40,342 bases of DNA from Buttiauxella izardii (GTDB lineage: Bacteria > Pseudomonadota > Gammaproteobacteria > Enterobacterales > Enterobacteriaceae). The DNA lies in contig NZ_QZWH01000025.1 in the NCBI RefSeq assembly GCF_003601925.1, forward strand, positions 1 through 40,342, given 5' to 3'. Both the position numbers and the translations under genes were made by a program. This document shows positions 288 to 14,104 of the stretch, one piece after another. The notes beneath the pieces are model-generated. The model saw only the letters and a program-made list of their open reading frames with translations. It made no database searches and was not told where the DNA came from. Numbering within the stretch: position 1 is the stretch's first letter; each line of letters opens with the position of its first letter.

Positions 288-743
288 ATGAACATTTGGG
301 AATTGAGCGAAAAAGCCGAATACATTGCCGACAAGCATCAGCGCTTGCTCGCGCAGTGGCAGCAATACTGCAATACGTTGATTCAGGGCATCACCCTTTC
401 TAAAGCAAAACTGCATCACGCAGTAGGCTGCAATCCTGATGATTCTCTGCGCTTTTTCTTATTTGACCATTTCGTGATCAACGTTCGACTGGCAGAAGGC
501 TTTAACAGCCATACCATTGAATATTATGTAGAAAAACGTAATGGTGAAGACAGAGTCCTGATTGCAAAAGCCATTCTTGATGACCATGGCCAGGTAGACA
601 ACAGCATCAGCAACCGTGACCGTGAAAATGTGCTCGAGCATTACCTCGAAAAAATTCACCCGGTCTACGAAAGCCTGTACAGCGCAGTAAACAGCGATAC
701 CCCGGTATCAATGGTTCAACTGCAACAACGTGCTCAGGCCTGA
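288..743 (+). CDS. hycA: Formate hydrogenlyase regulatory protein HycA
   Basis: The product has 151 residues, close to the 153 of E. coli HycA, and is the first gene of the hyc operon. HycA is known as a negative modulator of FhlA-dependent transcription of the formate regulon; it is cytoplasmic and has no recognisable catalytic motif. The protein is hydrophilic and mostly helical in appearance, with no signal peptide or membrane segment. The ATG at 288 follows the -24/-12 promoter by about 37 bp. The gap of 87 bp to hycB holds a further TGTCGAAACGACA dyad, as expected for an internal FhlA site. Identification rests on length, position and sequence resemblance to HycA. Confidence 0.93.
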   Translation: MNIWELSEKAEYIADKHQRLLAQWQQYCNTLIQGITLSKAKLHHAVGCNPDDSLRFFLFDHFVINVRLAEGFNSHTIEYYVEKRNGEDRVLIAKAILDDHGQVDNSISNRDRENVLEHYLEKIHPVYESLYSAVNSDTPVSMVQLQQRAQA

Positions 744-756
744 TTGCCCTGTTGGG

Positions 757-779
757 TGTCGAAAACTGTCGAAACGACA
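757..779. promoter_or_regulatory. Internal candidate FhlA site between hycA and hycB
   Basis: TGTCGAAACGACA (767-779) is a perfect 5-bp dyad around AAA, preceded by another TGTCGAAA half site at 757. It resembles the hycA upstream dyad. E. coli also carries an FhlA-responsive site in this gap. The role is inferred. Confidence 0.55.
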
Positions 780-830
780 AACTTCGGCACAGTTTCGTCA
801 TAAATGATGATGTGCTCTAAGGATGACCTG

Positions 831-1436
831 GTGAATCGCTTTATTATCGCCGACTCCAAACTCTGCATGGGTTGCCATACCTGTGAGGCGGCTTGCTCTG
901 AAACGCACCGTCTGCACGGCCTGCAATCTATGCCACGCCTGAAAGTGATGCGTGACGCGAATGAATCCGCGCCGCAAATATGCCATCACTGCGAAGATGC
1001 GCCGTGTGCAGGCGTTTGCCCGGCTAACGCCATTACTCGCGTCGATGGCGCGGTGCAGCTTAATGAAAGCCTGTGCGTCAGCTGCAAACTCTGCGCAATC
1101 GCCTGCCCATTCGGCTCTATCGAATTTTCCGGCAGCCGCCCGATTCATATCCCGGCGAATGCCAACAGCCCGAAAGCGCCACCTGCACCGCCTGCTCCGG
1201 CTCGTGTCAGCTCGCTTATCGACTGGGTGCCTGGCGTTCGCGCTATCGCTGTGAAATGCGACATGTGCTTCTTCGATGAAAGCGGCCCGGCGTGTGTGCG
1301 CACCTGCCCAACCAAAGCGCTGCGTGTGGTTGATAACAATGACATTGCTAAATCCAGCAAGCTCAAACGTGAACTGACTTTGGGCGCGACGCTTGGCGAT
1401 CTCACCCTGTTTACCCAGCCTGAGGTGAAAAAATGA
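831..1436 (+). CDS. hycB: Hydrogenase-3 electron-transfer iron-sulfur subunit HycB
   Basis: HycB is the polyferredoxin-like subunit that carries electrons from formate dehydrogenase-H to hydrogenase-3 on the cytoplasmic side of the membrane. From the chosen start the protein has 201 residues (E. coli 203). Four cysteine groups are visible: C12-C15-C18-C22 near the N terminus, CHHCEDAPCAGVCP, CVSCKLCAIACP, and CDMCFFDESGPACVRTCP, enough for four [4Fe-4S] clusters. A proline/alanine-rich linker (KAPPAPPAPA) separates the last two. I chose the GTG at 831 because AAGGA at 819-823 is well spaced and the protein then begins MNRF, as in E. coli; an upstream in-frame ATG at 804 lacks a ribosome site. 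It overlaps hycC by 4 bp, implying translational coupling. Confidence 0.96.
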   Translation: MNRFIIADSKLCMGCHTCEAACSETHRLHGLQSMPRLKVMRDANESAPQICHHCEDAPCAGVCPANAITRVDGAVQLNESLCVSCKLCAIACPFGSIEFSGSRPIHIPANANSPKAPPAPPAPARVSSLIDWVPGVRAIAVKCDMCFFDESGPACVRTCPTKALRVVDNNDIAKSSKLKRELTLGATLGDLTLFTQPEVKK

Positions 1437-3241
1437 GTGCTTTTATCCTGATTCATTGGGCGCTGATAGGCTTTGTATTAAGCGCCGTTCTGGCGGGTAT
1501 CACGGCATTTAATAAACCGATTAGCGGCTTTATTGCCGGGATCGGCGGCGCGATAAGCTCAGTGTTGGTGCTGATTGCCGGTTTCCAGGCGCTAACCGGA
1601 TTCAGCGGTATGGCGCAAATCTGGCACCAGAGTTTGCAGCTCAACGCGTTTAACGGCGTGTGGCTGGTGACGCTGGCGCTGCCAGGCCTGTTTATCTCTC
1701 TGTTTAATATCGACTGGCATCGTCATAACGCGATTAAAGCGAACGGCTTGTTGGTGAATCTGGTGATGGCGGCGGCAGTTGCCGCACTGGTGGCGGATAA
1801 CATCGGCATGTTAGTGGTGCTGGCGGAAATCGTCGCACTCGCTGGCTACTTCCTCACCGGCTGCCAGAAATCCGGGCAACTTTGGTTCGCGCTTGGCCGC
1901 CTCGGCACCGTATTGCTGGCGATCGCTTGTTGGATGCTGTGGAAACAATACGGCACGCTGAGCTACGCCGAACTGCATCTGCTGACTAACGGCGCGCCAA
2001 TTAGCTCTGTCGTCTGGCTGCTCGGCCTGGTCGGTTTTGGTTTGATGGCGGGGATTATTCCGCTGCACGGCTGGGTGCCGCAAGCACACGCCAACGCTTC
2101 TGCTCCGGCAGCCGCGCTGTTCTCCGCTGTAGTGTTGAAAATCGGCCTGTTCGGCATCATGAGTTTCTCGCTTATCAGCAACGCAATGCCGTTATGGTGG
2201 GGCGTTTTAGTGGTGGTTTTAGGGATGATTACGGCGTTTATCGGCGGCCTTTACGCGCTGATGGAACACAACATCAACCGCCTGCTGGCTTACCACTCGC
2301 TGGAAAACATCGGCATTATTCTACTCGGCCTCGGCTGCGGTTTGATTGGCCTGGCGCTAAACGAATCGGCGCTGGTCGCACTCGGCATGATTGGCGGCCT
2401 GTATCACCTGTTCAACCATAGCGTGTTCAAAACCACATTGTTCCTCGGCGCGGGCGCGGTCTGGTTCCGTACCGGTCATCGCGACATTGAAAAGCTCGGT
2501 GGAATTGGCAAGCGTATGCCGCTGATTTCTATCGCCATGCTGGTCGGTTTGATGGCAATGGCTGCATTGCCGCCGCTGAACGGCTTTGCGGGTGAGTGGC
2601 TGATTTACCAGTCGTTCTTCCATCTCGGCACGTTGCCGCTGTTTGTTGCTCGCTTCCTCGGCCCAATGCTGGCGGTTGGACTGGCGATTACCGGCGCACT
2701 GGCAGTGATGTGTATGGCGAAGGTTTATGGCGTGACTTTCCTCGGTGCGCCTCGCACGCCGGAAGCTGAAAACGCGACCTCTGCCCCATTCCTGATGAAC
2801 CTGTCCGTGGCTGCATTGGCGGCCTGTTGTGTGATTGCCGGTGTCGCCGCGCCGTGGCTGATTCCGCTGCTGCAAAACGCGATTCCGCTACCGCTGGAAA
2901 CCGCCAATACCACCGTTTCACAACCGATGATCACCCTGCTGCTGATTGCCAGCCCGCTGCTGCCATTCATTCTAATGGTGATTTTCCGTGGCGACCGTCT
3001 GCCAAACCGCTCACGCGGCACGGCCTGGGTTTGTGGTTACGACCACGAACAGGCGATGGTGATTACAGCGGGTGGTTTTGCTCAGCCAGTAAAAGCGGCG
3101 TTTGCGCCACTGCTGAAACTGCGCAAAACCCTGAACCCGGTGAAATGGGTGCCTGGCTGGCAGTGTGATTGCCTGGCGGGGACGTTCCGTCGCCTGGCGA
3201 TGATTGAACTGGCGGTGTTGCTGGTTGCGGTTTGCGCTTAA
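1433..3241 (+). CDS. hycC: Hydrogenase-3 membrane subunit HycC
   Basis: This 602-residue, highly hydrophobic protein (E. coli 608) belongs to the NuoL/M/N antiporter-like family of complex I and anchors hydrogenase-3 in the inner membrane together with HycD. About 14 or more transmembrane segments run through the length. Family signatures are visible, including GWVPQAHANASAPAAALFSA around residue 210 and the lysine-containing FNHSVFKTTLFLGAGAV in the central region. The start overlaps the hycB stop (ATGA). Whether the complex pumps ions is not settled by sequence; charged residues typical of the family are retained. Confidence 0.96.
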   Translation: MSAFILIHWALIGFVLSAVLAGITAFNKPISGFIAGIGGAISSVLVLIAGFQALTGFSGMAQIWHQSLQLNAFNGVWLVTLALPGLFISLFNIDWHRHNAIKANGLLVNLVMAAAVAALVADNIGMLVVLAEIVALAGYFLTGCQKSGQLWFALGRLGTVLLAIACWMLWKQYGTLSYAELHLLTNGAPISSVVWLLGLVGFGLMAGIIPLHGWVPQAHANASAPAAALFSAVVLKIGLFGIMSFSLISNAMPLWWGVLVVVLGMITAFIGGLYALMEHNINRLLAYHSLENIGIILLGLGCGLIGLALNESALVALGMIGGLYHLFNHSVFKTTLFLGAGAVWFRTGHRDIEKLGGIGKRMPLISIAMLVGLMAMAALPPLNGFAGEWLIYQSFFHLGTLPLFVARFLGPMLAVGLAITGALAVMCMAKVYGVTFLGAPRTPEAENATSAPFLMNLSVAALAACCVIAGVAAPWLIPLLQNAIPLPLETANTTVSQPMITLLLIASPLLPFILMVIFRGDRLPNRSRGTAWVCGYDHEQAMVITAGGFAQPVKAAFAPLLKLRKTLNPVKWVPGWQCDCLAGTFRRLAMIELAVLLVAVCA

Positions 3242-3251
3242 GGAACCTGAG

Positions 3252-4178
3252 ATGAATACCATTTTCTTTTCGTTGATTCAGGCGCTGGTGTTGTTTGCCG
3301 TCGCGCCGTTGTTGTCCGGTATTACCCGCGTGACTCGCGCCCGCATGCACAACCGCCGTGGGCCTGGCGTGATGCAGGAATATCGTGACCTGTTCAAACT
3401 GTTCAGCCGTCAAAGCGTGGCTCCGGCAGCTTCCGGCTGGGTGTTCCGCCTGATGCCGTTTGTGATGGTTGGCGTGATGCTGACGATTGCCACCGCGCTG
3501 CCAGTGGTGACGCTGTATTCGCCACTGCCGTCGCTGGGCGATTTGATAACGCTTATCTACCTGTTCGCGATTGCGCGTTTCTTCTTTGCGATTGCAGGCC
3601 TCGACACCGGTAGCCCGTTTACCGGCATCGGTGCCAGCCGTGAAGCGATGCTCGGCGTGTTAGTTGAACCGATCCTGATTCTGGGACTGTGGGTTGCGGC
3701 GCAAGTCGCGGGCAGCACGCATATCAGCAATATCGCTTCCACCATTTACCACTGGCCTGTCACACACAGCTTAACGCTGATTCTGGCGCTCGCTGCCTGT
3801 GCCTTCGCCACCTTTATCGAAATGGGCAAGCTGCCATTTGACCTCGCAGAAGCCGAGCAAGAATTGCAGGAAGGCCCGTTGACCGAATACAGCGGCGCGG
3901 GTTTTGCGGTGCTGAAATGGGGGATTTCCCTCAAGCAATTAGTGGTGCTGCAAATGTTCGTCGGCGTGTTCCTGCCATGGGGCCAGATGAGCGAATTTAG
4001 CTGGGGCGGCCTGGTGATTGCGCTGGCTCTGGCGGCAGTAAAACTGGTGGCTGGCGTGCTGATTATCGCGCTGTTCGAAAACAGCATGGCGCGTTTACGA
4101 ATGCTGGAAACCTCGCGCATTACCTGGGCCGGTTTTGGCTTTGCCTTTTTAGCCTTCGTCTCCTTGCTGGCGGCGTGA
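3252..4178 (+). CDS. hycD: Hydrogenase-3 membrane subunit HycD
   Basis: HycD is the NuoH-like membrane subunit that links the cytoplasmic hydrogenase arm to HycC. The protein has 308 residues (E. coli 307) and about eight hydrophobic helices. Family marks include HNRRGPGVMQEYRDLFKL near residue 30, FIEMGKLPFDLAEAEQELQEG and the C-terminal RITWAGFGFAFLAF. The ATG at 3252 is preferred over an upstream in-frame GTG/ATG because AGGA at 3241-3244 is correctly placed and the protein then begins directly with its first membrane helix, as in E. coli. It follows hycC by 10 bp. Confidence 0.96.
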   Translation: MNTIFFSLIQALVLFAVAPLLSGITRVTRARMHNRRGPGVMQEYRDLFKLFSRQSVAPAASGWVFRLMPFVMVGVMLTIATALPVVTLYSPLPSLGDLITLIYLFAIARFFFAIAGLDTGSPFTGIGASREAMLGVLVEPILILGLWVAAQVAGSTHISNIASTIYHWPVTHSLTLILALAACAFATFIEMGKLPFDLAEAEQELQEGPLTEYSGAGFAVLKWGISLKQLVVLQMFVGVFLPWGQMSEFSWGGLVIALALAAVKLVAGVLIIALFENSMARLRMLETSRITWAGFGFAFLAFVSLLAA

Positions 4179-4195
4179 TTTAAGAGAATTTATCT

Positions 4196-5905
4196 ATGTC
4201 TGAAGAAAAGATTGGCCAACATTATCTCGCGGCGCTGCATAAGCAATTTCCTCATGCGGTGATCGACGAAGCGTGGCAGACCAAAGACCAAATCACCGTC
4301 ACCGTGAAGCTCAACATGCTGCCAGAAGTGGTGGAGTGGCTTTACTACCAGCAAGGCGGTTGGTTATCCGTATTGTTCGGTAACGATGAACGCCAGTTGT
4401 GCGGCAACTACGCGGTTTACTACGTGCTTTCCATGGAAAGCGGCGTGAAATGCTGGATCACCGTGCGCGTTGAAGTGGACGCTGATAAACCTGAATTCCC
4501 GTCTGTGACGCCGCGCGTTCCAGCCGCCGTTTGGGGCGAGCGTGAAGTGCGTGACATGTACGGCCTGCAACCTGTTGGCCTGCCGGATGAACGCCGTTTA
4601 GTACTGCCGGATGATTGGCCAGACGACCTGTATCCGCTGCGTAAAGACAGCATGGATTACCGTCAGCGCCCGGCTCCGACCACCGATCAGGAAACTTACC
4701 AGTTCATTAACGAGCTGGGCAGCAAGAAGAACAACGTGGTGCCGATTGGCCCGCTGCACGTCACTTCTGACGAACCGGGCCACTTCCGCCTGTTCGTTGA
4801 CGGCGAGAACATTATCGACGCCGATTACCGCCTGTTCTACGTCCACCGTGGCATGGAAAAACTGGCTGAAACCCGCATGGGTTATAACGAAGTGACGTTC
4901 TTGTCTGACCGTGTTTGCGGTATTTGCGGCTTCGCCCACAGCACCGCGTACACCACGTCTGTTGAGAACGCGATGGGTATCGTGGTGCCAGAACGCGCCC
5001 AGATGATCCGTGCAATTTTGCTGGAAGTGGAACGCCTCCACAGCCACCTGCTGAACCTCGGCCTGGCTTGCCACTTTGTCGGCTTCGACTCCGGCTTTAT
5101 GCAGTTCTTCCGCGTGCGTGAGATGTCGATGAAAATGGCGGAAATCCTCACCGGCGCGCGTAAAACTTACGGCCTGAACCTGATTGGTGGGATCCGTCGT
5201 GATCTGCTGAAAGACGACATGATCCAGACGCGCCAGCTCGCACAACAGATGCGCCGCGAAGTGAAAGACCTGGTCGATATCCTGATGAGCACGCCAAACA
5301 TCGAACAGCGTACCGTCGGCATTGGCCGTCTTGACCCGCAAATCGCTCGCGATTTCAGTAACGTCGGCCCAATGGTTCGCGCCAGCGGCCACGCCCGTGA
5401 CACCCGCGCCGATCACCCGTTTGTGGGTTACGGTTTGCTGCCGATGGAAGTCCACAGCGAAACCGGCTGTGACGTGTTGTCGCGCCTGAAAGTGCGTATC
5501 AACGAGGTTTATACCGCGCTGAATATGATTGATTTTGGCCTCGATAACTTGCCTGGCGGCCCGCTGGCGGTTGACGGTTTCACCTATATTCCAAACCGTT
5601 TCGCGCTTGGCTTCTCTGAAGCGCCACGCGGCGATGACATTCACTGGTCAATGACCGGCGATAACCAGAAGTTGTACCGCTGGCGCTGCCGTGCGGCGAC
5701 CTACGCCAACTGGCCGACGCTGCGTTACATGCTGCGTGGCAACACCGTTTCTGACGCGCCACTGATCATCGGCAGCCTCGATCCTTGCTACTCCTGTACC
5801 GACCGCATGACGGTGGTGGATGTGCGTAAGCGCAAGACCAAAGTGGTGCCGTACAAAGAGCTTGAGCGCTACAGCATTGAACGCACCAATTCGCCGCTGA
5901 AATAA
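4196..5905 (+). CDS. hycE: Hydrogenase-3 catalytic large subunit HycE
   Basis: HycE is the [NiFe] catalytic subunit that reduces protons to H2. It has 569 residues, identical in length to E. coli. An N-terminal NuoC-like domain (about 1-170) precedes a NuoD/large-subunit domain. The nickel ligands are visible as C241 and C244 in RVCGICGFAHS and C531 and C534 in DPCYSCTDR. The last 32 residues after R537 (MTVVDVRKRKTK...) form the C-terminal extension that HycI removes after nickel insertion in E. coli; both the protease gene and the cleavage context are conserved here. The start is 17 bp after hycD. Confidence 0.98.
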   Translation: MSEEKIGQHYLAALHKQFPHAVIDEAWQTKDQITVTVKLNMLPEVVEWLYYQQGGWLSVLFGNDERQLCGNYAVYYVLSMESGVKCWITVRVEVDADKPEFPSVTPRVPAAVWGEREVRDMYGLQPVGLPDERRLVLPDDWPDDLYPLRKDSMDYRQRPAPTTDQETYQFINELGSKKNNVVPIGPLHVTSDEPGHFRLFVDGENIIDADYRLFYVHRGMEKLAETRMGYNEVTFLSDRVCGICGFAHSTAYTTSVENAMGIVVPERAQMIRAILLEVERLHSHLLNLGLACHFVGFDSGFMQFFRVREMSMKMAEILTGARKTYGLNLIGGIRRDLLKDDMIQTRQLAQQMRREVKDLVDILMSTPNIEQRTVGIGRLDPQIARDFSNVGPMVRASGHARDTRADHPFVGYGLLPMEVHSETGCDVLSRLKVRINEVYTALNMIDFGLDNLPGGPLAVDGFTYIPNRFALGFSEAPRGDDIHWSMTGDNQKLYRWRCRAATYANWPTLRYMLRGNTVSDAPLIIGSLDPCYSCTDRMTVVDVRKRKTKVVPYKELERYSIERTNSPLK

Positions 5906-5916
5906 ACGGAGTCACC

Positions 5917-6462
5917 ATGTTTAACTTCATCAAAAAAGCCATTAAAGGCGGCGTAGCCACCGAGTCGTACCCGCTACAGCCGATTGCCGTGGACCCTAAT
6001 TTCCGTGGCAAACCGGAACACAATCCGCAGCAGTGTATCGGCTGTGCGGCGTGCGTGAACGCCTGTCCGTCTAACGCCTTAACCGTGGAAACCGACCTGG
6101 TGGCCGGGCAACTGGCGTGGACTTTCAATCTTGGGCGCTGCATTTTCTGCGCGCGCTGTGAAGAAGTCTGCCCAACGGCGGCCATCAAGCTTTCGCAGCA
6201 ATATGAACTGGCAGTGTGGAACAAGGCAGATTTCCTGCAACAGGCGCGTTTCGACCTGTGCAACTGCCGCCAGTGCGGCAAGCCTTACGCGGTGCAAAAA
6301 GAGATTGATTACGCGATTGCGCTGCTTGAGCACAACGGCGACAAATTCGCCGAAGCGCACCGCGCCTCGTTTGAAACCTGCCCGGAATGCAAACGCCAGC
6401 AAAGCCTGGTGTCTTCCGACCAAATCGACCTTAGCCGCCAGATAAGAGAGGTGCGCTCATGA
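5917..6462 (+). CDS. hycF: Hydrogenase-3 ferredoxin-like subunit HycF
   Basis: The protein has 181 residues (E. coli 180) and is the NuoI-like subunit passing electrons between HycB and HycG. Two classical cluster motifs are present, [12 protein letters not shown] (near residue 43) and [12 protein letters not shown] (near residue 76). A cysteine-rich C-terminal part follows, with [12 protein letters not shown] and CPECKRQQ, which could bind a metal. A GGAG-like ribosome site precedes the ATG at 5917. It overlaps hycG by 4 bp. Confidence 0.96.
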
Positions 6463-7223
6463 GTATGTTACTCGGCCCGCGCGACGATAAAGGCATGCCT
6501 GTGCCAATGACGGTGGATGAGTCCATCGCCAGCATGAAAGCGTCGCTGCTGAAAAAAATTAAACGTTCCGCGTATGTTTACCGCGTTGACTGCGGTGGTT
6601 GTAACGGCTGCGAAATCGAAATTTTCGCCACCCTTTCGCCACTTTTCGACGCAGAACGCTTCGGGATCAAAGTGGTTCCGTCACCTCGCCATGCGGACAT
6701 TTTACTGTTTACCGGCGCTGTCACTCGCGCGATGCGTTCCCCCGCGCTGCGTGCCTGGGAATCAGCGCCGGACCCTAAAATTTGCATCTCTTACGGTGCA
6801 TGTGGCAACAGCGGTGGCATCTTCCACGACCTGTATTGCGTCTGGGGCGGCACCGATAAAATCGTTCCTGTAGACGTTTATATTCCTGGCTGCCCGCCAA
6901 CGCCTGCGGCAACGCTGTACGGTTTTGCTATGGCGTTAGGTTTGCTGGAGCAGAAAATCCACGCTCGCGAAGCCAGCGAAATGGACGCGCAACCGGCGCA
7001 GATTCTGCACCCGGATATGGTTCAGCCATTGCGTGTGCGTATCGACCGCGAAGCACGTCGCCTGGCGGGTTATCGCTATGGTCGCCAGATTGCTGACAAT
7101 TACATGGAAAACCTCACCGCCGGTAGCGGCAGTGTTGAGCAGTGGCTGGCGCACGAGAACGATCCGCGTCTGACTGAAATCGTCGGTAATCTCGAAGCAC
7201 TGGTGAAGCAGGAGCGCGTGTAA
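6459..7223 (+). CDS. hycG: Hydrogenase-3 small subunit HycG
   Basis: HycG is the NuoB-like small subunit (254 residues, E. coli 255) holding the [4Fe-4S] cluster next to the nickel site. Cluster ligands are visible in [13 protein letters not shown] (near residue 45), [12 protein letters not shown] and [14 protein letters not shown]. There is no twin-arginine signal, consistent with a cytoplasm-facing enzyme. It starts within the hycF stop and its own stop touches the hycH start (ATG at 7223), so the three are translationally coupled. Confidence 0.97.
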
Positions 7224-7633
7224 TGAGCGAGTCGGTGGTGTTTTGCCAGCTTAGCCGTAAGTTTGTCGATGAAAATGACAACACACCGAGTGATGCGCAA
7301 CAGGTGGTTTATTACAGCCTGGCAATCGGCCACCATCTCGGCGTTATCGACTGCCTGAAAGAGAACCTGGTTTGTTCGTTTGAGCCTTACAAAGCGTGGA
7401 TTGCCACGCTTGAAGAAGGCAGCGAAGCGCGGCGCAAAATGGAAGGTGTGCCGCGTTACGGCGAAATTGTTATCGACCAAAGCCATGTGGTTTTGTTAGC
7501 GAAAGCGTTTGATGCCGCCAAACCAACGCAAACCGAACAGCAGCAGGAATGGAGCCAGGAATTGCTCGATATGCTGCAAGCCATTCAACAAGAACCCGCC
7601 ATTTATTTGATGGTTCGGAGACGCTATGACTAA
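7223..7633 (+). CDS. hycH: Formate hydrogenlyase maturation protein HycH
   Basis: HycH has 136 residues, exactly as in E. coli, and is needed for assembly of hydrogenase-3; its molecular task is not well defined. The sequence is soluble with no cysteine motif or membrane helix. It overlaps hycG by one base and hycI by 8 bp (7626-7633), so it belongs to the coupled distal part of the operon. Identification is by position, length and resemblance to HycH. Confidence 0.93.
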   Translation: MSESVVFCQLSRKFVDENDNTPSDAQQVVYYSLAIGHHLGVIDCLKENLVCSFEPYKAWIATLEEGSEARRKMEGVPRYGEIVIDQSHVVLLAKAFDAAKPTQTEQQQEWSQELLDMLQAIQQEPAIYLMVRRRYD

Positions 7634-8099
7634 CGTTTTATTGTGTGTCGGCAACAGCATGATGGGTGACGACGGCGCAGGCCCGTTGCTCGCTGAAAAG
7701 TGCCAGGCTGCCCCGCAAGGCGACTGGGTGGTTATCGACGGCGGCACCGCACCTGAAAATGACGTGGTGGCGATTCGCGAATTGCGCCCGCAAAGATTGC
7801 TGCTGGTCGATGCCACGGATATGGGCCTTGCGCCAGGTGAAATCCGCATCATCGACCCGGACGATATCGCCGAAATGTTTATGATGACCACCCACAACAT
7901 GCCACTCAATTACCTGATTGATCAGCTGAAAGAGGATGTTGGCGAAGTGATTTTCTTAGGCATTCAGCCGGATATCGTCGGCTTTTATTACCCGATGACC
8001 GACGCGATCAAAGCGGCGGTCGAGACGGTGTATCAGCGCCTGGCGAACTGGGAAGGCAAAGGCGGTTTCGCGGATTTGGAAGCGCCAGAGTTCGAGTAG
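7626..8099 (+). CDS. hycI: Hydrogenase-3 maturation endopeptidase HycI
   Basis: HycI is a peptidase-family-M52 endopeptidase that removes the C-terminal extension of HycE after nickel insertion. The protein has 157 residues (E. coli 156). Conserved nickel-contacting positions are visible: the acidic residue in GNSMMGDDGAGP (D16), D62 in LLVDATDMG, and the histidine in MTTHNMPLNYL (about 90). It ends the hyc operon; a REP pair lies immediately downstream. Confidence 0.96.
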   Translation: MTNVLLCVGNSMMGDDGAGPLLAEKCQAAPQGDWVVIDGGTAPENDVVAIRELRPQRLLLVDATDMGLAPGEIRIIDPDDIAEMFMMTTHNMPLNYLIDQLKEDVGEVIFLGIQPDIVGFYYPMTDAIKAAVETVYQRLANWEGKGGFADLEAPEFE

Positions 8100-8181: not shown

Positions 8182-8466
8182 TCAGACGTAATGAATATCG
8201 AGTGAAATCCTTGCGCCACAGGCGGCGGCATAGCGTTCGAGCATTTTGACACTGGCACTCAGGGGGTTTTTCTCAAGACGGCTAATACCCGTCGAATTTG
8301 TTCCGAGCTTATTTGCTAGCTCGGTTTGCGTCAGTCCAGCCCGTTCGCGCATTTCATATAAAGCCTGAACCAGCGCCAGTTCCCGATCGGCTTCGTTGTA
8401 AGCCTGCACGGACTCATCATCGCTGAGCATTTTCGTTTTCAGTGCATCAAGAGAGACGGGTTTCAC
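8182..8466 (-). CDS. XRE-family antitoxin (HigA-like)
   Basis: This 94-residue protein has a clear helix-turn-helix of the XRE/Cro type in its middle (RERAGLTQTELANKLGTNST, then GISRLEKNPLSAS). The N-terminal part probably contacts the toxin. It starts with GTG overlapping the stop of the upstream toxin gene (GTGA, 8463-8466), the toxin-first order of HigBA-type modules. By family analogy it neutralises the partner and represses the shared promoter. No counterpart exists at this place in E. coli. Exact subfamily cannot be fixed without a search. Confidence 0.85.
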   Translation of the reverse strand: MKPVSLDALKTKMLSDDESVQAYNEADRELALVQALYEMRERAGLTQTELANKLGTNSTGISRLEKNPLSASVKMLERYAAACGARISLDIHYV

Positions 8467-8777
8467 TTCATAAACTCCTTCAGCCTTATCCGGGCAATTT
8501 CAATGGCGCTTGCCGGGGTTTTGAGTGTCTTTTTAGTAAAGGCATGCAGAATATAAATAGTTTGCCCATAACTAAAAGCATAGACCACCCGAGCAATATC
8601 TTTGTCGCCCACGCGCAGCTCAAAAAGCCCACCGCCCAGCACCCGGCTATGAGGCATTCTAAGTTGGTTACCTTCAGATTCCAGCCGCTCAATTAAGCGA
8701 AACATACGACCTCGCAATTGCGAAGGTAAAGTAATGAGCTCTTCGGCTGCCGCTTCATGCGTCAATATTGTATACAT
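8463..8777 (-). CDS. RelE/HigB-family toxin (Gp49-like)
   Basis: The 104-residue protein resembles the phage-Gp49/HigB branch of the RelE superfamily, whose members are ribosome-dependent mRNA interferases. Visible family traits are the central GGGLFELRVGDKDIARVVYAF block and the following GQTIYILHAFTKKTLKTPASA, the usual hydrophobic strand plus FxKKtxKtP stretch. A GGAGG ribosome site lies about 7 nt upstream of the ATG at 8777. It is followed directly by the antitoxin gene with a 4-bp overlap. The module is inserted between hycI and hydN on the opposite strand, so it is not part of formate metabolism. Confidence 0.85.
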   Translation of the reverse strand: MYTILTHEAAAEELITLPSQLRGRMFRLIERLESEGNQLRMPHSRVLGGGLFELRVGDKDIARVVYAFSYGQTIYILHAFTKKTLKTPASAIEIARIRLKEFMK

Positions 8778-8885
8778 TCTAACCCCTCCGTCCGCTGAAA
8801 CATAACAGCAGGGAAAAGTTTCCTGAATTCATTTCGAGATTTGCCTGCAGGGTTTGCGAGCCGCTTTCCAGAAGCCTCTGTCATT

Positions 8886-8926
8886 TGCCCAAATGACATC
8901 GTCATATGTGTCGAAGTCACTGTCAT
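8886..8926. promoter_or_regulatory. Candidate FhlA site cluster upstream of hydN
   Basis: The stretch holds AAATGACATCGTCAT and then TGTCGAAGTCACTGTCAT, i.e. several TGTCG/TGACA half sites like those near hycA. It lies about 110-150 bp upstream of the hydN start, a normal enhancer distance for a sigma-54 activator. Function is inferred from motif recurrence. Confidence 0.55.
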
Positions 8927-8974: not shown

Positions 8975-8991
8975 TTGGCACACTTTATGTA
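8975..8991 (+). promoter_or_regulatory. Probable sigma-54 promoter of hydN-fdhF
   Basis: TTGGCAC gives a perfect -24 element with GG at 8977-8978. Ten bases further the -12 dinucleotide reads GT (8989-8990), not the consensus GC. The element is otherwise well placed, 46 bp before the hydN ATG. The 8-bp arms AAGTTGGC (8972-8979) and GCCAACTT (9000-9007) form an inverted repeat that straddles the core promoter. Confidence 0.5.
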
Positions 8992-9035
8992 TGTCTATCG
9001 CCAACTTATAAAAACACTCTATCCAGGAGTTCATG

Positions 9036-9581
9036 ATGAACCGCTTCATCATTGCTGATTCGAGCAAATGTATTGGCTGCCGCACTTGCGAAGTGGCCTG
9101 TGTCGTGTCCCACCAGGAAGTGCAGGATTGCGCAACATTAACGCCGCAAACCTTCCTCCCGCGCATTCATGTCATTAAAGGCGTGAATGTTTCTACCGCA
9201 ACGATGTGCCGTCAGTGCGAAGACGCGCCTTGCGCTAACGTCTGCCCGAATGGCGCGATCAGCCGCGAGCACGGTTTTGTGAATGTGATGCAAGAACGTT
9301 GCATCGGCTGCAAAACCTGCGTGGTGGCTTGCCCATACGGCGCGATGGAAGTGGTCGTTCGCCCGGTAGTGCGCAACAGCGGCGCGGGCTTAAACGTGAT
9401 GGCAGAAAAAGCCGAAGCGAATAAGTGCGACCTTTGCCACACCCGCGCATCCGGCCCGGCGTGTATGGAAGCCTGCCCAACCAACGCGATTATCTGTGTT
9501 GATCGCAACAAACTTGAACAAATGAGTGCCGAAAAACGCCGTCGTGCTGCGTTCGACGCCACTTCATCTTTGATTTTCTAA
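9036..9581 (+). CDS. hydN: Ferredoxin-like electron transfer protein HydN
   Basis: HydN is a 181-residue polyferredoxin (E. coli 175) related to HycB and associated with formate dehydrogenase-H electron transfer. Four cluster motifs are visible: CIGCRTCEVAC at the N terminus, CRQCEDAPCANVCP, CIGCKTCVVACP and CDLCHTRASGPACMEACP. Two adjacent ATGs exist at 9033 and 9036; AGGAG at 9025-9029 is better spaced for 9036, giving MNRFIIADSS as in E. coli. It is probably co-transcribed with fdhF 35 bp downstream. Confidence 0.95.
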   Translation: MNRFIIADSSKCIGCRTCEVACVVSHQEVQDCATLTPQTFLPRIHVIKGVNVSTATMCRQCEDAPCANVCPNGAISREHGFVNVMQERCIGCKTCVVACPYGAMEVVVRPVVRNSGAGLNVMAEKAEANKCDLCHTRASGPACMEACPTNAIICVDRNKLEQMSAEKRRRAAFDATSSLIF

Positions 9582-9616: not shown

Positions 9617-11767
9617 ATGAAAAAAATTACCAGCGTCTGCCCATACTGTGGCGCAGGCTGCAAACTGAAACTGGTTGTTGAGAAGAACAAAATTATCCGT
9701 GCCGAAGCGGCTGATGGCGTGACCAACCAAAATGAACTCTGCCTGAAAGGTTACTACGGCTGGGATTTTCTCAACGACACTAAGCTGCTCACACCGCGTC
9801 TGACGCAGCCAATGATTCGTTACGAAAAAGGCGGAAAACTCCAGCCAGTGAGCTGGGAAGAAGCCATTAGCTATACCGCGAAACGCCTGAAAGCGATTAA
9901 AGAGCAATATGGCCCACGCTCGATTATGACCACCGGTTCGTCGCGCGGAACGGGTAACGAAACCAACTATGTGATGCAGAAGTTTGCACGTGGCGTGCTG
10001 CATACCAACAACGTCGACTGCTGTGCGCGTGTTTGCCACGGGCCGTCGGTTGCCGGTTTGCAGGTGACGCTGGGAAATGGAGCGATGAGTAACTCCATCG
10101 GCGATATCGAAAACTCAAAATGCCTGCTGGTGTTTGGCTATAACTGCGCTGATTCGCACCCGATCGTGGCGCGTCGTGTGATTAAAGCGAAAGAAAATGG
10201 CGCGAAAATCATTGTTTGCGATCCGCGCCGCATCGAAACCGCACGCATTGCCGATCAGCATTTGCAGCTGAAAAACGGCTGCAATATGGCGCTGGTCAAT
10301 GCCTTTGGCTACGTGCTGCTCGAAGAACAACTCTACGATCAAGAGTACGTGGCGAAATACACCGAAGGCCTGGACGCTTACCGCGAAGTGGTCAAAGGCT
10401 ACGCGCCAGAAGACGTCGAGCATTTAACCGGCGTTCCGGCACATCAGGTTCGCCAGGCGATGCGCACCTTTGCCGCCGCCCCTTCTGCCACCATCATGTG
10501 GGGCATGGGCGTGACGCAATTCGGCCAGGCGGTTGACGTGGTGAAAGGGCTTTCCAGCCTTGCGCTGCTGACCGGCAACCTGGGCCGTGAAAACGTCGGT
10601 GTTGGCCCGGTTCGTGGGCAAAACAACGTGCAGGGCGCTTGCGATATGGGCGTTTTGCCAAACCAGTTCCCTGGGTATCAGGATGTGGTTGATCCGCAAG
10701 TTCGTGCCAAATTCGCCAAAGCGTGGGGCATCAACGCCGAGGATATGGACGACAAAGTTGGCGTGCGTATTACCGAAGTGCCGCACATGGCAATTCACGG
10801 CGAGATGAAAGCCTACTACATCATGGGCGAAGACCCGTTGCAGACCGAAGCCGATCTCGGCCTGGTGCGCAAAGGTTTTGCCGCCCTCGATTTTGTGGTG
10901 GTGCAGGACATTTTCATGACCAAAACCGCCGAAGTCGCCGATGTGATTTTGCCAGCCACTTCATGGGGCGAGCACGGCGGCGTGTTTACCTGTGCAGACC
11001 GTGGCTTCCAGCGTTTTGAAAAAGCCATCGAGCCGAAATACAACGTCAAACGTGACTGGGAAATTATCAGCCTGCTCGCCACCGCGATGGGCTACCCAAT
11101 GCACTACGAAAACAACCAGCAAATCTGGGATGAGCTGCGCGAACTTTGCCCGCTGTTCTACGGCGTCACCTATGAAAAAATGGGCGATATGGGCCATGTG
11201 CAGTGGCCGTGCCCGACGCTGGATCATCCTGGTACGCCGTATCTCTACAAAGACAGCAAGTTCGATACGCCAACCGGCAAAGGCCAGTTGTTTGCCGCCG
11301 AGTGGCGCGCACCTGCCGAAACGCCGGATGCAGAATATCCGCTGGTGCTATGCACCGTGCGCGAAGTCGGCCACTACTCTTGCCGCTCAATGACCGGCAA
11401 CTGTGCGGCGCTGCAAACTCTGGCGGATGAGCCTGGCTTTGTGCAGATGAACCCGGCGGATGCTGAAAAGCTCGGTATCAAAGACAAGCAACTGGTGTGG
11501 GTGAGTTCGCGTCGCGGCAAAGTGATCAGCCGTGCGGAAGTCAACGAGCGCATTAACCTTGGCTCGGTTTACATGACCTATCAATGGTGGATTGGCGCAT
11601 GTAATGAACTGACGCAAGACAATCTCGACCCGATTTCCAAAACACCGGAAACCAAATATTGTGCAGTGAATGTCAGCCAGATTGCCGACCAGCAATGGGC
11701 GGAAAATTATGCGCAGACAACCTACAGCGATATGAAGGCGCGTTTGCGCCGGGCTGTAGAGGTTTAA
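9617..11767 (+). CDS. fdhF: Formate dehydrogenase-H, cysteine (selenium-free) form
   Basis: This 716-residue molybdopterin enzyme (E. coli 715) oxidises formate to CO2 and feeds electrons to hydrogenase-3. The [4Fe-4S] ligands are C8, C11, C15 and C42 (CPYCGAGC and ELCLKG), followed by K44. H141 and R333 (in PVRGQNNVQGACDMG), the active-site partners, are kept. The key difference is residue 140: codon 10034-10036 is TGC (Cys) in NNVDCCARVCHGPSV, where E. coli has UGA for selenocysteine. The reading frame is therefore open throughout and needs no SelC/SelB. The gene lies between hydN and hypF, whereas E. coli fdhF is unlinked to hyc. No strong ribosome site is seen; ACAGG lies about 11 nt upstream. 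Confidence 0.97.
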   Translation: MKKITSVCPYCGAGCKLKLVVEKNKIIRAEAADGVTNQNELCLKGYYGWDFLNDTKLLTPRLTQPMIRYEKGGKLQPVSWEEAISYTAKRLKAIKEQYGPRSIMTTGSSRGTGNETNYVMQKFARGVLHTNNVDCCARVCHGPSVAGLQVTLGNGAMSNSIGDIENSKCLLVFGYNCADSHPIVARRVIKAKENGAKIIVCDPRRIETARIADQHLQLKNGCNMALVNAFGYVLLEEQLYDQEYVAKYTEGLDAYREVVKGYAPEDVEHLTGVPAHQVRQAMRTFAAAPSATIMWGMGVTQFGQAVDVVKGLSSLALLTGNLGRENVGVGPVRGQNNVQGACDMGVLPNQFPGYQDVVDPQVRAKFAKAWGINAEDMDDKVGVRITEVPHMAIHGEMKAYYIMGEDPLQTEADLGLVRKGFAALDFVVVQDIFMTKTAEVADVILPATSWGEHGGVFTCADRGFQRFEKAIEPKYNVKRDWEIISLLATAMGYPMHYENNQQIWDELRELCPLFYGVTYEKMGDMGHVQWPCPTLDHPGTPYLYKDSKFDTPTGKGQLFAAEWRAPAETPDAEYPLVLCTVREVGHYSCRSMTGNCAALQTLADEPGFVQMNPADAEKLGIKDKQLVWVSSRRGKVISRAEVNERINLGSVYMTYQWWIGACNELTQDNLDPISKTPETKYCAVNVSQIADQQWAENYAQTTYSDMKARLRRAVEV

Positions 11768-11770
11768 GAC

Positions 11771-11846
11771 CACCCTCATCCCAACCTTCTCCCCCAGGAG
11801 AAGGAGTTTTTCCCCCTCTCCTGGGGGAGAGGGTCGGGGTGAGGGC
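11771..11846. repeat. C/G-rich palindromic repeat between fdhF and hypF
   Basis: CACCCTCATCCCAACCTTCTCC...GGAGAAGG is followed by CCCCCTCTCCTGGGGGAGAGGG and GGGGTGAGGGC. Outer and inner arms are complementary. It begins 4 bp after the fdhF stop and ends 20 bp before the hypF start, so it fills the intergenic space and could attenuate or process the transcript between them. Confidence 0.85.
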
Positions 11847-11866
11847 AAACGTTTTAAGGAACAATA

Positions 11867-14104
11867 GTGAATCTTAACGGCGTGATGCTACGCATTCGCG
11901 GCAAAGTTCAGGGCGTTGGCTTCCGGCCATACGTCTGGCAACTGGCGCAAAAACTCAAACTCACCGGCGATGTCTGCAATGACGGCGCGGGAGTTTTAGT
12001 GCGCCTTGCGTCTTCGCCCGAAACGTTTATCAGCGAGCTTCACGCCCATTGCCCACCGCTTGCGCGTATCGACAGCGTCGAACAAACCGAAATGCTTTGG
12101 GAAACACTGCCGCAGGATTTCACCATTCGCCACAGCGCGGCCAGTACAATGGACACCCAAATCGTGCCGGACGCTGCGACCTGCCCGGATTGCCTGCGGG
12201 AACTTAACGACCCCAACGACCGCCGCTATCGTTATCCGTTTATCAATTGCACCCACTGCGGCCCGCGCTTCACGATTATTAAGGCGATGCCGTACGACCG
12301 CCCAAACACTGTGATGGCGGCGTTCCCGCTGTGCCCGGCGTGTGAAAAAGAGTACCGCGACCCGATGGACAGGCGTTTTCATGCCCAGCCGGTCGCCTGC
12401 CCGGAATGCGGGCCGCAAATCGCCTGGCAAAGTGGCGAGCAAAAACTCGAGCGTGAAGCTGCGTTACAAGCCGCCATTTCTGCGTTAAAAGACGGGAAAA
12501 TCGTCGCCATAAAAGGGCTGGGCGGTTTCCACCTCGCGGTGGATGCGTGCAACGATGCCGCGGTTTCCCGCCTGCGCACCCGTAAACATCGCCCGGCAAA
12601 ACCGCTGGCGGTGATGCTTCCTGACTCAACGGATTTACCCGCCGAAGTCGCCGCACAACTCAATACGCCAGCGGCACCGATTGTGTTAATAGAGAAGTCC
12701 GCATTAAGCGGGTTAAGTGAATTTATCGCCCCGCATTTAAGCGAAGTGGGCGTGATGCTGCCCGCCAACCCGTTACAGCACTTGTTGATGCAGGATTTCG
12801 GCGGCCCGCTGGTGATGACTTCCGGGAATTTAAATGGCAAAACGCCTGCCATCACCAATCAGCAAGCCCTTGAAGAACTGGCGGATATCGCCGACGGCTG
12901 GCTGCTGCATAACCGCAATATCGTGCAGCGCATGGATGATTCCGTGGTGCGCGCCGAGGGTGAAGTGCTGCGCCGTGCGCGGGGTTTTGTGCCGGATGCA
13001 CTGCCATTGCCGACAGGTTTTGATGCTTTACCGCCTATTTTCGCCACTGGCTCTGACCTGAAAAACACCTTCTGTTTGCTGCGCGGCAACCAGGCGGTAC
13101 TCAGCCAGCATTTGGGCGACCTCGCGGAAGAAGGCGTTGAGCAGCAATGGCAAAAAGCGCGTGAATTGATGTTTGATGTCTATAGCTTCACGCCGCAAGT
13201 TGTTGCGGTAGATGCGCACCCCGGCTATCACAGCGCCCGCCTGGGGCTTGAAATGGGTTTGCCCGTGCGCAAAGTGTTGCATCACCACGCGCACGCTGCG
13301 GCTTGTCTCGCAGAACACGGCTGGCCGTTAAACGGCGGCGATGTGATTGCGCTGACTCTTGATGGCATTGGTTATGGTGAGAACGACCAGCTTTGGGGCG
13401 GCGAATGCCTGCGCGTGAATTACCGTGAGTGTGAACATCTTGGCGGCCTGCCTGCCGTGGCGCTGCCCGGTGGCGACCTCGCGGCTCGTCAGCCGTGGCG
13501 CAATCTTCTCGCCCATTGCGCAACCTTTGTCCCGAACTGGCAGCAACTGCCTGAAACAGCCGTCGTTCGGGAACAAAACTGGCCGTTGTTGGCGACAGCC
13601 ATCGAGCGCGGAATCAACGCGCCACTCGCCTCATCTACTGGCCGATTATTCGATGCCGCCGCTGCGGCACTGAACTGCGCGCCGCTACAGCAAAGTTATG
13701 AAGGCGAAGCCGCCTGTCGCTTTGAAGCGCTGGCATCACAAAGTGGCAATTGCCCACACCCGGTCACGCTGCCGGTTATCGACGGCAAGCTGGATTTGGC
13801 AACCTTCTGGCAGCAATGGCTGAACTGGCATGACTGCGCTACCGCTCGCGCCTGGGCGTTCCATGATGCGCTGGCAAAAGGCTTTGCCGATTTAGCCCGC
13901 ATCCATGCGCGTGAGCTTTCCATTAACACCATCGTGTTGAGCGGTGGCGTTTTGCATAACCGCCTGATGCGCGAAAGATTTTCGTATCACCTCGCAGATT
14001 TCACTCTGCTCTTCCCGACACTGTTACCGGCCGGTGACGGTGCGCTGGCATTGGGTCAGGCACTGGTTGCCGCCGCCCATTTCACCCTTCCTTCACAAGG
14101 ATAA
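11867..14104 (+). CDS. hypF: [NiFe] hydrogenase maturation carbamoyltransferase HypF
   Basis: HypF converts carbamoyl phosphate to the carbamoyl-adenylate used to build the cyanide ligands of the NiFe site. The protein has 745 residues (E. coli 750). Domains in order: an acylphosphatase-like domain ([16 protein letters not shown] near residue 12), two zinc fingers with CxxC pairs at 106/109, 128/131, 156/159 and 178/181, a YrdC-like domain, and a Kae1-like domain with HHHAH at 472-476 and the terminal GGVLHNRLM block. Start is GTG at 11867 behind AAGGA (11856-11860). Together with the next gene it forms a tight pair, 1 bp apart. Confidence 0.97.

Follow-up and report, generated by a model that had tools for sequence, protein, structure and literature searches.

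A cysteine-type formate dehydrogenase-H gene beside the hydrogenase-3 operon of Buttiauxella, in a genome that also has a selenocysteine-type copy

Formate dehydrogenase-H (FDH-H) of E. coli, encoded by fdhF, has selenocysteine (Sec) at residue 140. The fdhF gene that lies beside a hydrogenase-3 operon in Buttiauxella izardii has a cysteine codon at this position. Is it a selenoprotein gene that has recently lost its Sec codon, as the first-pass annotation proposed, or an enzyme of another kind? To answer, we used the whole 40,342-nucleotide stretch of DNA that carries the gene (hereafter the window), the rest of the genome and FdhF sequences from other bacteria.

Codon 140 of the window fdhF and its SECIS region

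The fdhF open reading frame (9617-11767, + strand) encodes a 716-residue protein matching the Fdh-alpha profile TIGR01591 with 922.4 bits, for a cut-off of 666. Among the best 80 of 591 relatives, the nearest named ones belong to Buttiauxella species, with 97% protein identity. Codon 140 (10034-10036, + strand), at the Sec position, was read directly as TGC within NNVDCCARVCHGPSV. The corresponding codon is TGA in a Sec paralogue of the same genome, described below. Alignment with this paralogue confirmed that C8, C11, C15, C42, K44, H141 and R333 are all kept. This list, with cysteines 8, 11, 15 and 42 as [4Fe-4S] ligands, is that of the first-pass annotation. In a search of the genus, the 11 other genomes also have a Cys copy, free of internal stops and 96-97% identical to that of the window; codon 140 is TGC in 11 of the 12 genus copies and TGT in one. 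The TGC codon is therefore neither chance nor an isolated read error, and we give practically no credence to an assembly or base-call artefact hiding a real TGA.

The Cys-type FdhF of Intestinirhabdus alba (L137:10001-12145), as well as that of L148, has Cys and not His at residue 141 (CARVCCGPSV). Matches to three molybdopterin-oxidoreductase Pfam domains are retained in these proteins, whose function is possibly lost or altered.

The SECIS region was compared in a set of 234 FdhF sequences, of which 232 were kept (73 Sec and 159 Cys). Because some genomes appear under two locus identifiers, a set reduced at 93% identity was also used; of its 92 representatives, 28 are Sec and 64 are Cys. At codons 147-148, GGTCTG, the SECIS loop core, is found in 73/73 Sec sequences versus 1/159 Cys sequences (the exception is L116), and in 28/28 versus 0/64 representatives. 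The Gly and Leu codons at these positions are variable in Cys copies, and the window copy has GGTTTG (10055-10060, + strand). The Rfam SECIS_2 model scores 83.2 bits on the Sec fdhF of the genome, above the gathering score of 70, and only 30.1 bits on the window copy (10029-10083), where a faint SECIS remnant may persist. The window FdhF thus departs from a selenoprotein FDH-H by its TGC codon, its loop core and its SECIS_2 score. Cys140 and its place in an old Cys clade, which also includes three Shewanella Sec representatives, identify it as a Cys-type FdhF.

The Sec copy of the same genome and the spread of the pair

The genome contains 14 matches to PF00384, three of them with one in-frame TGA. 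One of the three genes is a second fdhF, whose product shares 65.5% amino acid identity with the window copy (467/713) and 87.7% with an E. coli FdhF. The first-pass annotation had named a second, Sec-type fdhF elsewhere as evidence against its own reading; as to existence, this gene was found. The other two TGA-containing molybdopterin oxidoreductase genes resemble FdnG/FdoG by size. The selenium machinery is present over cut-offs, with selA at 619 bits, selB at 768 bits and tRNA-Sec (selC) at 78.9 bits. This gene content suggests that the cell can make Sec. With a Sec fdhF and selA, selB and selC at hand, the Cys copy is no stand-in for a lost Sec enzyme. Independence from selenium, also put forward at first, would hold for the window protein but not for the cell, given these genes and the three TGA genes.

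The Sec fdhF lies near acs and actP genes. In the 12 kb around it, tblastn gave no match to mdtN, mdtO, mdtP, yjcO, gltP or nrfG, the neighbours of fdhF in E. coli. At the hydN locus of one E. coli genome, no fdhF separates hydN from the hypF that comes next; in another E. coli genome, fdhF is located between mdtP and yjcO.

The two forms occur together in 12/12 genomes of the genus search, the Cys copy being 96-100% and the Sec copy 65-66% identical to the window copy. In the family search, 145 of the 295 genomes covered gave one or more FdhF matches with E up to 1e-200. Hand sorting (no internal stop, about 72% identity or more, and membership of the window clade only where the row was in the 96-row tree described below) placed 77 genomes in the window-type Cys group. 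SelB is over its cut-off in 67 of the 77; in 64 of these it is accompanied by another FdhF match, counted as a match and not each inspected for TGA. Among the ten without SelB, eight have a single copy and two have a second copy without TGA. The Cys clade is common to many Enterobacterales genera, with TGC and TGT codons mixed. Thus, many enterobacteria seem, from their gene content, to keep a Sec and Cys FDH-H pair in one cell.

Could the window gene nevertheless result from a recent single-base loss of Sec, or be an alternative allele in this Buttiauxella strain? TGC is one base away from TGA and the SECIS_2 model still gives some score, but the Sec gene stands at a separate locus, the Cys copy is found in all 12 genomes of the genus search, its codon varies within the clade, and none of the 63 Cys representatives besides the window copy has a SECIS core. 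Moreover, at four-fold sites the window copy agrees with the Sec copy of its genome in 113/238 cases and with the Hafnia Cys copy in 140/293, about equally low values. The conserved pair of Cys and Sec genes refutes this reading, whose probability we regard as negligible. On sequence grounds, the window fdhF is an ordinary Cys isoenzyme, an old and widely shared second copy with no recent mutation.

Cys and Sec forms in FdhF trees

Two trees were used, one of 96 rows and one of 57 rows, the latter computed with a mixture model after blanking residues 140-155. The first-pass annotation had asked whether Cys arose once or several times. Cys and Sec are not cleanly separated: the 57-row tree contains six label changes (five to six in bootstrap trees), at least four of which are forced by well-supported branches. 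In the 96-row tree, the clade of the window copy comprises 45 Cys and 3 Sec representatives, and it includes four Serratia species (L127, L129, L131 and L142). The three Sec members (L145, L212 and L214) come from a Shewanella fodinae record and from two genomes of genus g159, taken as Shewanella; one genome of g159 shares its match coordinates with the S. fodinae record. They are the less ordinary part of the picture and are worth following.

In L226, a genome of family f9, the starts of a Cys and a Sec fdhF are about 12 kb apart. Both copies fall in a small branch made up of three Sec and two Cys representatives, where a separate origin of the Cys form is suggested.

Forcing the 22 Cys rows of the window clade together without the Shewanella Sec sequences changes the log-likelihood by -97 (AU p 4e-8). 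Under a two-state model the ancestor is Cys, with P about 1.00 for the clade and 0.98-0.99 for the Shewanella pair (two trees, three rootings), and a Sec-to-Cys-only model fits worse than a two-way model (likelihood ratio 19-25); these values assume homogeneous two-state rates, with uneven sampling and a clade chosen after viewing the tree. Because the Shewanella Sec copies are nested in the Cys clade and a Cys ancestor is favoured, a Cys-to-Sec conversion is suggested. The Cys-FdhF lineage of the window would then be the stock from which the Shewanella Sec FdhF was re-made, a proposal that we put forward tentatively, with confidence a little short of even. About five independent Sec losses, as counted on the 57-row tree, are a possible alternative, and recurrent losses are known in the FdhA family; the ancestral-state fits speak against it. 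If true, the Shewanella conversion means that Cys/Sec exchange in formate dehydrogenase runs both ways.

L145, L212 and L214 have both the SECIS loop core and the codon for Arg149 that is found in their Cys neighbours; SelB is present in their cells. Arg149, located inside the SECIS region, occurs among the 92 representatives in the three Shewanella Sec copies, two Shewanella-genus Cys copies, two Cys copies of the sister genus g217 and L136 (Cys), and in no classic Sec copy. Its presence argues against the transfer of a whole classic SECIS. The SECIS_2 model scores 34.6 bits on L145, below gathering and barely over the window Cys copy, and finds no match (E up to 1) in the Shewanella Cys copy L138.

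Local gene conversion, through short exchanges, is another possible origin of the Shewanella Sec codon. We compared the three Sec copies in windows of 60 residues. In the segment holding codon 140 (residues 121-180), Shewanella Cys and L222, a classic Shewanella-genus Sec copy, are nearly tied, with 78 to 78 for L145, 80 to 75 for L212 and 78 to 77 for L214, and all three Sec copies are nearer L222 in residues 601-660. However, in 12/12 windows each resembles the Shewanella Cys copy more than it does E. coli Sec, and they stay in the Cys clade in the tree with residues 140-155 blanked.

A match with E up to 1e-200 was obtained in 10/129 genomes of the genus Shewanella. By identity, five of them have a window-type copy: three have both forms, one has Sec only, and in G1030 both copies are shortened. 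A full-length SelB match is present in the four genomes other than G1030. The Sec match of G1030 is limited to residues 1-452 and its Cys copy to 62-715, and selB is matched in two pieces; in this genome, the Sec trait may be in decay. SelB over cut-off is absent from both genomes of the sister genus g217, which are Cys only.

Gene neighbourhood, proposed role and known systems

The hydrogenase-3 operon, hycA to hycI, occupies 288-8099 (+ strand). It is followed by hydN (9033-9581, + strand; NF007658, 371.9 bits, cut-off 260), directly 5' of fdhF, and hypF (11867-14104, + strand; TIGR00143, 891 bits, cut-off 466) comes directly 3'. The hydN match stops 38 bases before fdhF and the hypF match starts 103 bases after it. 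HycA, HycC, HycI, HydN and HypF are over their NCBIfam cut-offs. In the same profile scan, HycB and HycE reached no family cut-off and HycG passed only that of the general NuoB subfamily, so that these three names rest on position; hycD, hycF and hycH, the scan having taken in the other hyc products, are named by gene order. The first-pass annotation was right to describe a Cys form of FDH-H next to hydrogenase-3 genes.

Between hycI and hydN, 8182-8777 (- strand) encodes a Gp49/DUF891-type protein and a helix-turn-helix protein, resembling a toxin-antitoxin pair. Between fdhF and hypF (11766-11852) lies a long hairpin with an energy of -64 kcal/mol and a z of about -8. It belongs to a repeat dispersed over the genome, with 76 matches (palindromic places counted on both strands), and is therefore not specific to the operon.

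Upstream of hydN, an imperfect candidate sigma-54 site, TTGGCACACTTTATGTA, was found at 8975-8991 (+ strand) by a pattern search with the sigma-54 consensus, allowing up to three mismatches. Similar sites precede hycA (position 235) and the Sec fdhF, which is consistent with one formate regulon. A perfect 9-bp inverted repeat read in the sequence at 8879-8898 (no strand assigned), TGTCATTTG-CC-CAAATGACA, is a possible activator site, perhaps FhlA-like.

In the window clade, 30/44 Cys representatives whose flanks were long enough have hydN immediately before fdhF, and 26/45 have hypF immediately after it. For Sec representatives, the figures are 14/28 and 0/25. Thus, hydN accompanies FdhF generally and is no marker of Cys copies; it is the hydN-fdhF-hypF order that marks the Cys clade. 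No hydN, hypF or hyc relative was found in the flanks of ten Cys representatives of Klebsiella/Enterobacter/Citrobacter type (L101 and L086 among them).

Considering the observed sequence, paralogy, gene order and co-occurrence with a Sec copy and Sec machinery, we think it quite likely that the window fdhF is an old Cys paralogue that provides hydrogenase-3 with an FDH-H independent of selenium, a Sec isoform being encoded at another locus. By analogy with the known chemistry of the family, formate would be oxidised at a Mo-bis-MGD centre that has Cys140 as a ligand, and His141 and Arg333 would be active-site residues. As the gene neighbourhood suggests, electrons would most likely pass from the [4Fe-4S] cluster of FdhF to HycB and on to hydrogenase-3, and HydN, encoded alongside, probably helps assembly. 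The Cys isoform would sustain the formate hydrogenlyase (FHL) under limited selenium supply or UGA decoding, and the Sec isoform would give higher turnover, a division of labour by selenium supply that we infer. FHL could also be served by the Sec copy alone, as in E. coli, which would weigh against the isoenzyme reading.

Alternatively, the Cys copy might not be an FHL subunit and might act as a formate dehydrogenase in its own right, with HydN or some other ferredoxin-like protein as its partner. Its immediate neighbour is hydN rather than hycB, hydN is not directly upstream in 14/44 clade Cys representatives, the ten flanks mentioned above showed no hyc, hydN or hypF relative, and possible moonlighting of E. 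coli FdhF has been raised (PMC7384014). The hyc operon nevertheless adjoins the window gene, and most H2 production in Pectobacterium atrosepticum requires a Cys FdhF (PMC7384014); we consider a separate enzyme unlikely. A partnership with hydrogenase-4 was rejected for this genome, where one group-4-type hydrogenase large subunit was found, the only other match being 27% identical. With natural Sec and Cys pairs of this kind, what selenium contributes to an enzyme could be tested in a native setting; a Cys FHL is also attractive in hydrogen engineering.

Termite-gut treponemes reportedly pair Sec and Cys fdhF isoforms in one cell; they belong to another lineage and pathway than Buttiauxella. 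The E. coli FdhF is of the same family as the window copy and differs by Sec140 and its SECIS. For FdhA, a 2006 survey counted seven Sec-to-Cys events and zero Cys-to-Sec, and it noted what resembles a SECIS remnant in the FdhA of Mannheimia (PMC1794560). Sec-to-Cys changes are described as uncommon and found chiefly in FdhA and SelD (PMC13188914), and the available text of PMC4340222 contains nothing on Cys forms.

Two published systems come closest, and with them the Cys FdhF class and the hydN-fdhF(Cys) order are already in print, the class being, as first annotated, not new (PMC7384014, PMC6004506). In Serratia liquefaciens, hydN forms one unit with a Cys-type fdhF, as in the window, and a Cys variant of E. 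coli FdhF is 20-fold less active (PMC6004506). Buttiauxella has a Sec copy, whereas the available text of that study mentions none for S. liquefaciens. The FdhF of P. atrosepticum (ECA1250) resembles the window copy by Cys140 and by a locus tag adjoining that of hypF (ECA1251) in an FHL cluster (PMC7384014). It is reported as 85% identical overall to E. coli FdhF (PMC7384014), versus 66.5% (80.2% positives) for the window copy. Among our 159 Cys sequences, the top identity to E. coli FdhF is 68.3%, none reaching 70%; judged by this published figure, P. atrosepticum FdhF may belong to a different branch, or the 85% may denote similarity. It works with hydrogenase-4 (FHL-2) in a cell without Sec machinery (PMC7384014), whereas the Buttiauxella copy lies beside hydrogenase-3 in a genome with intact selA, selB and selC.
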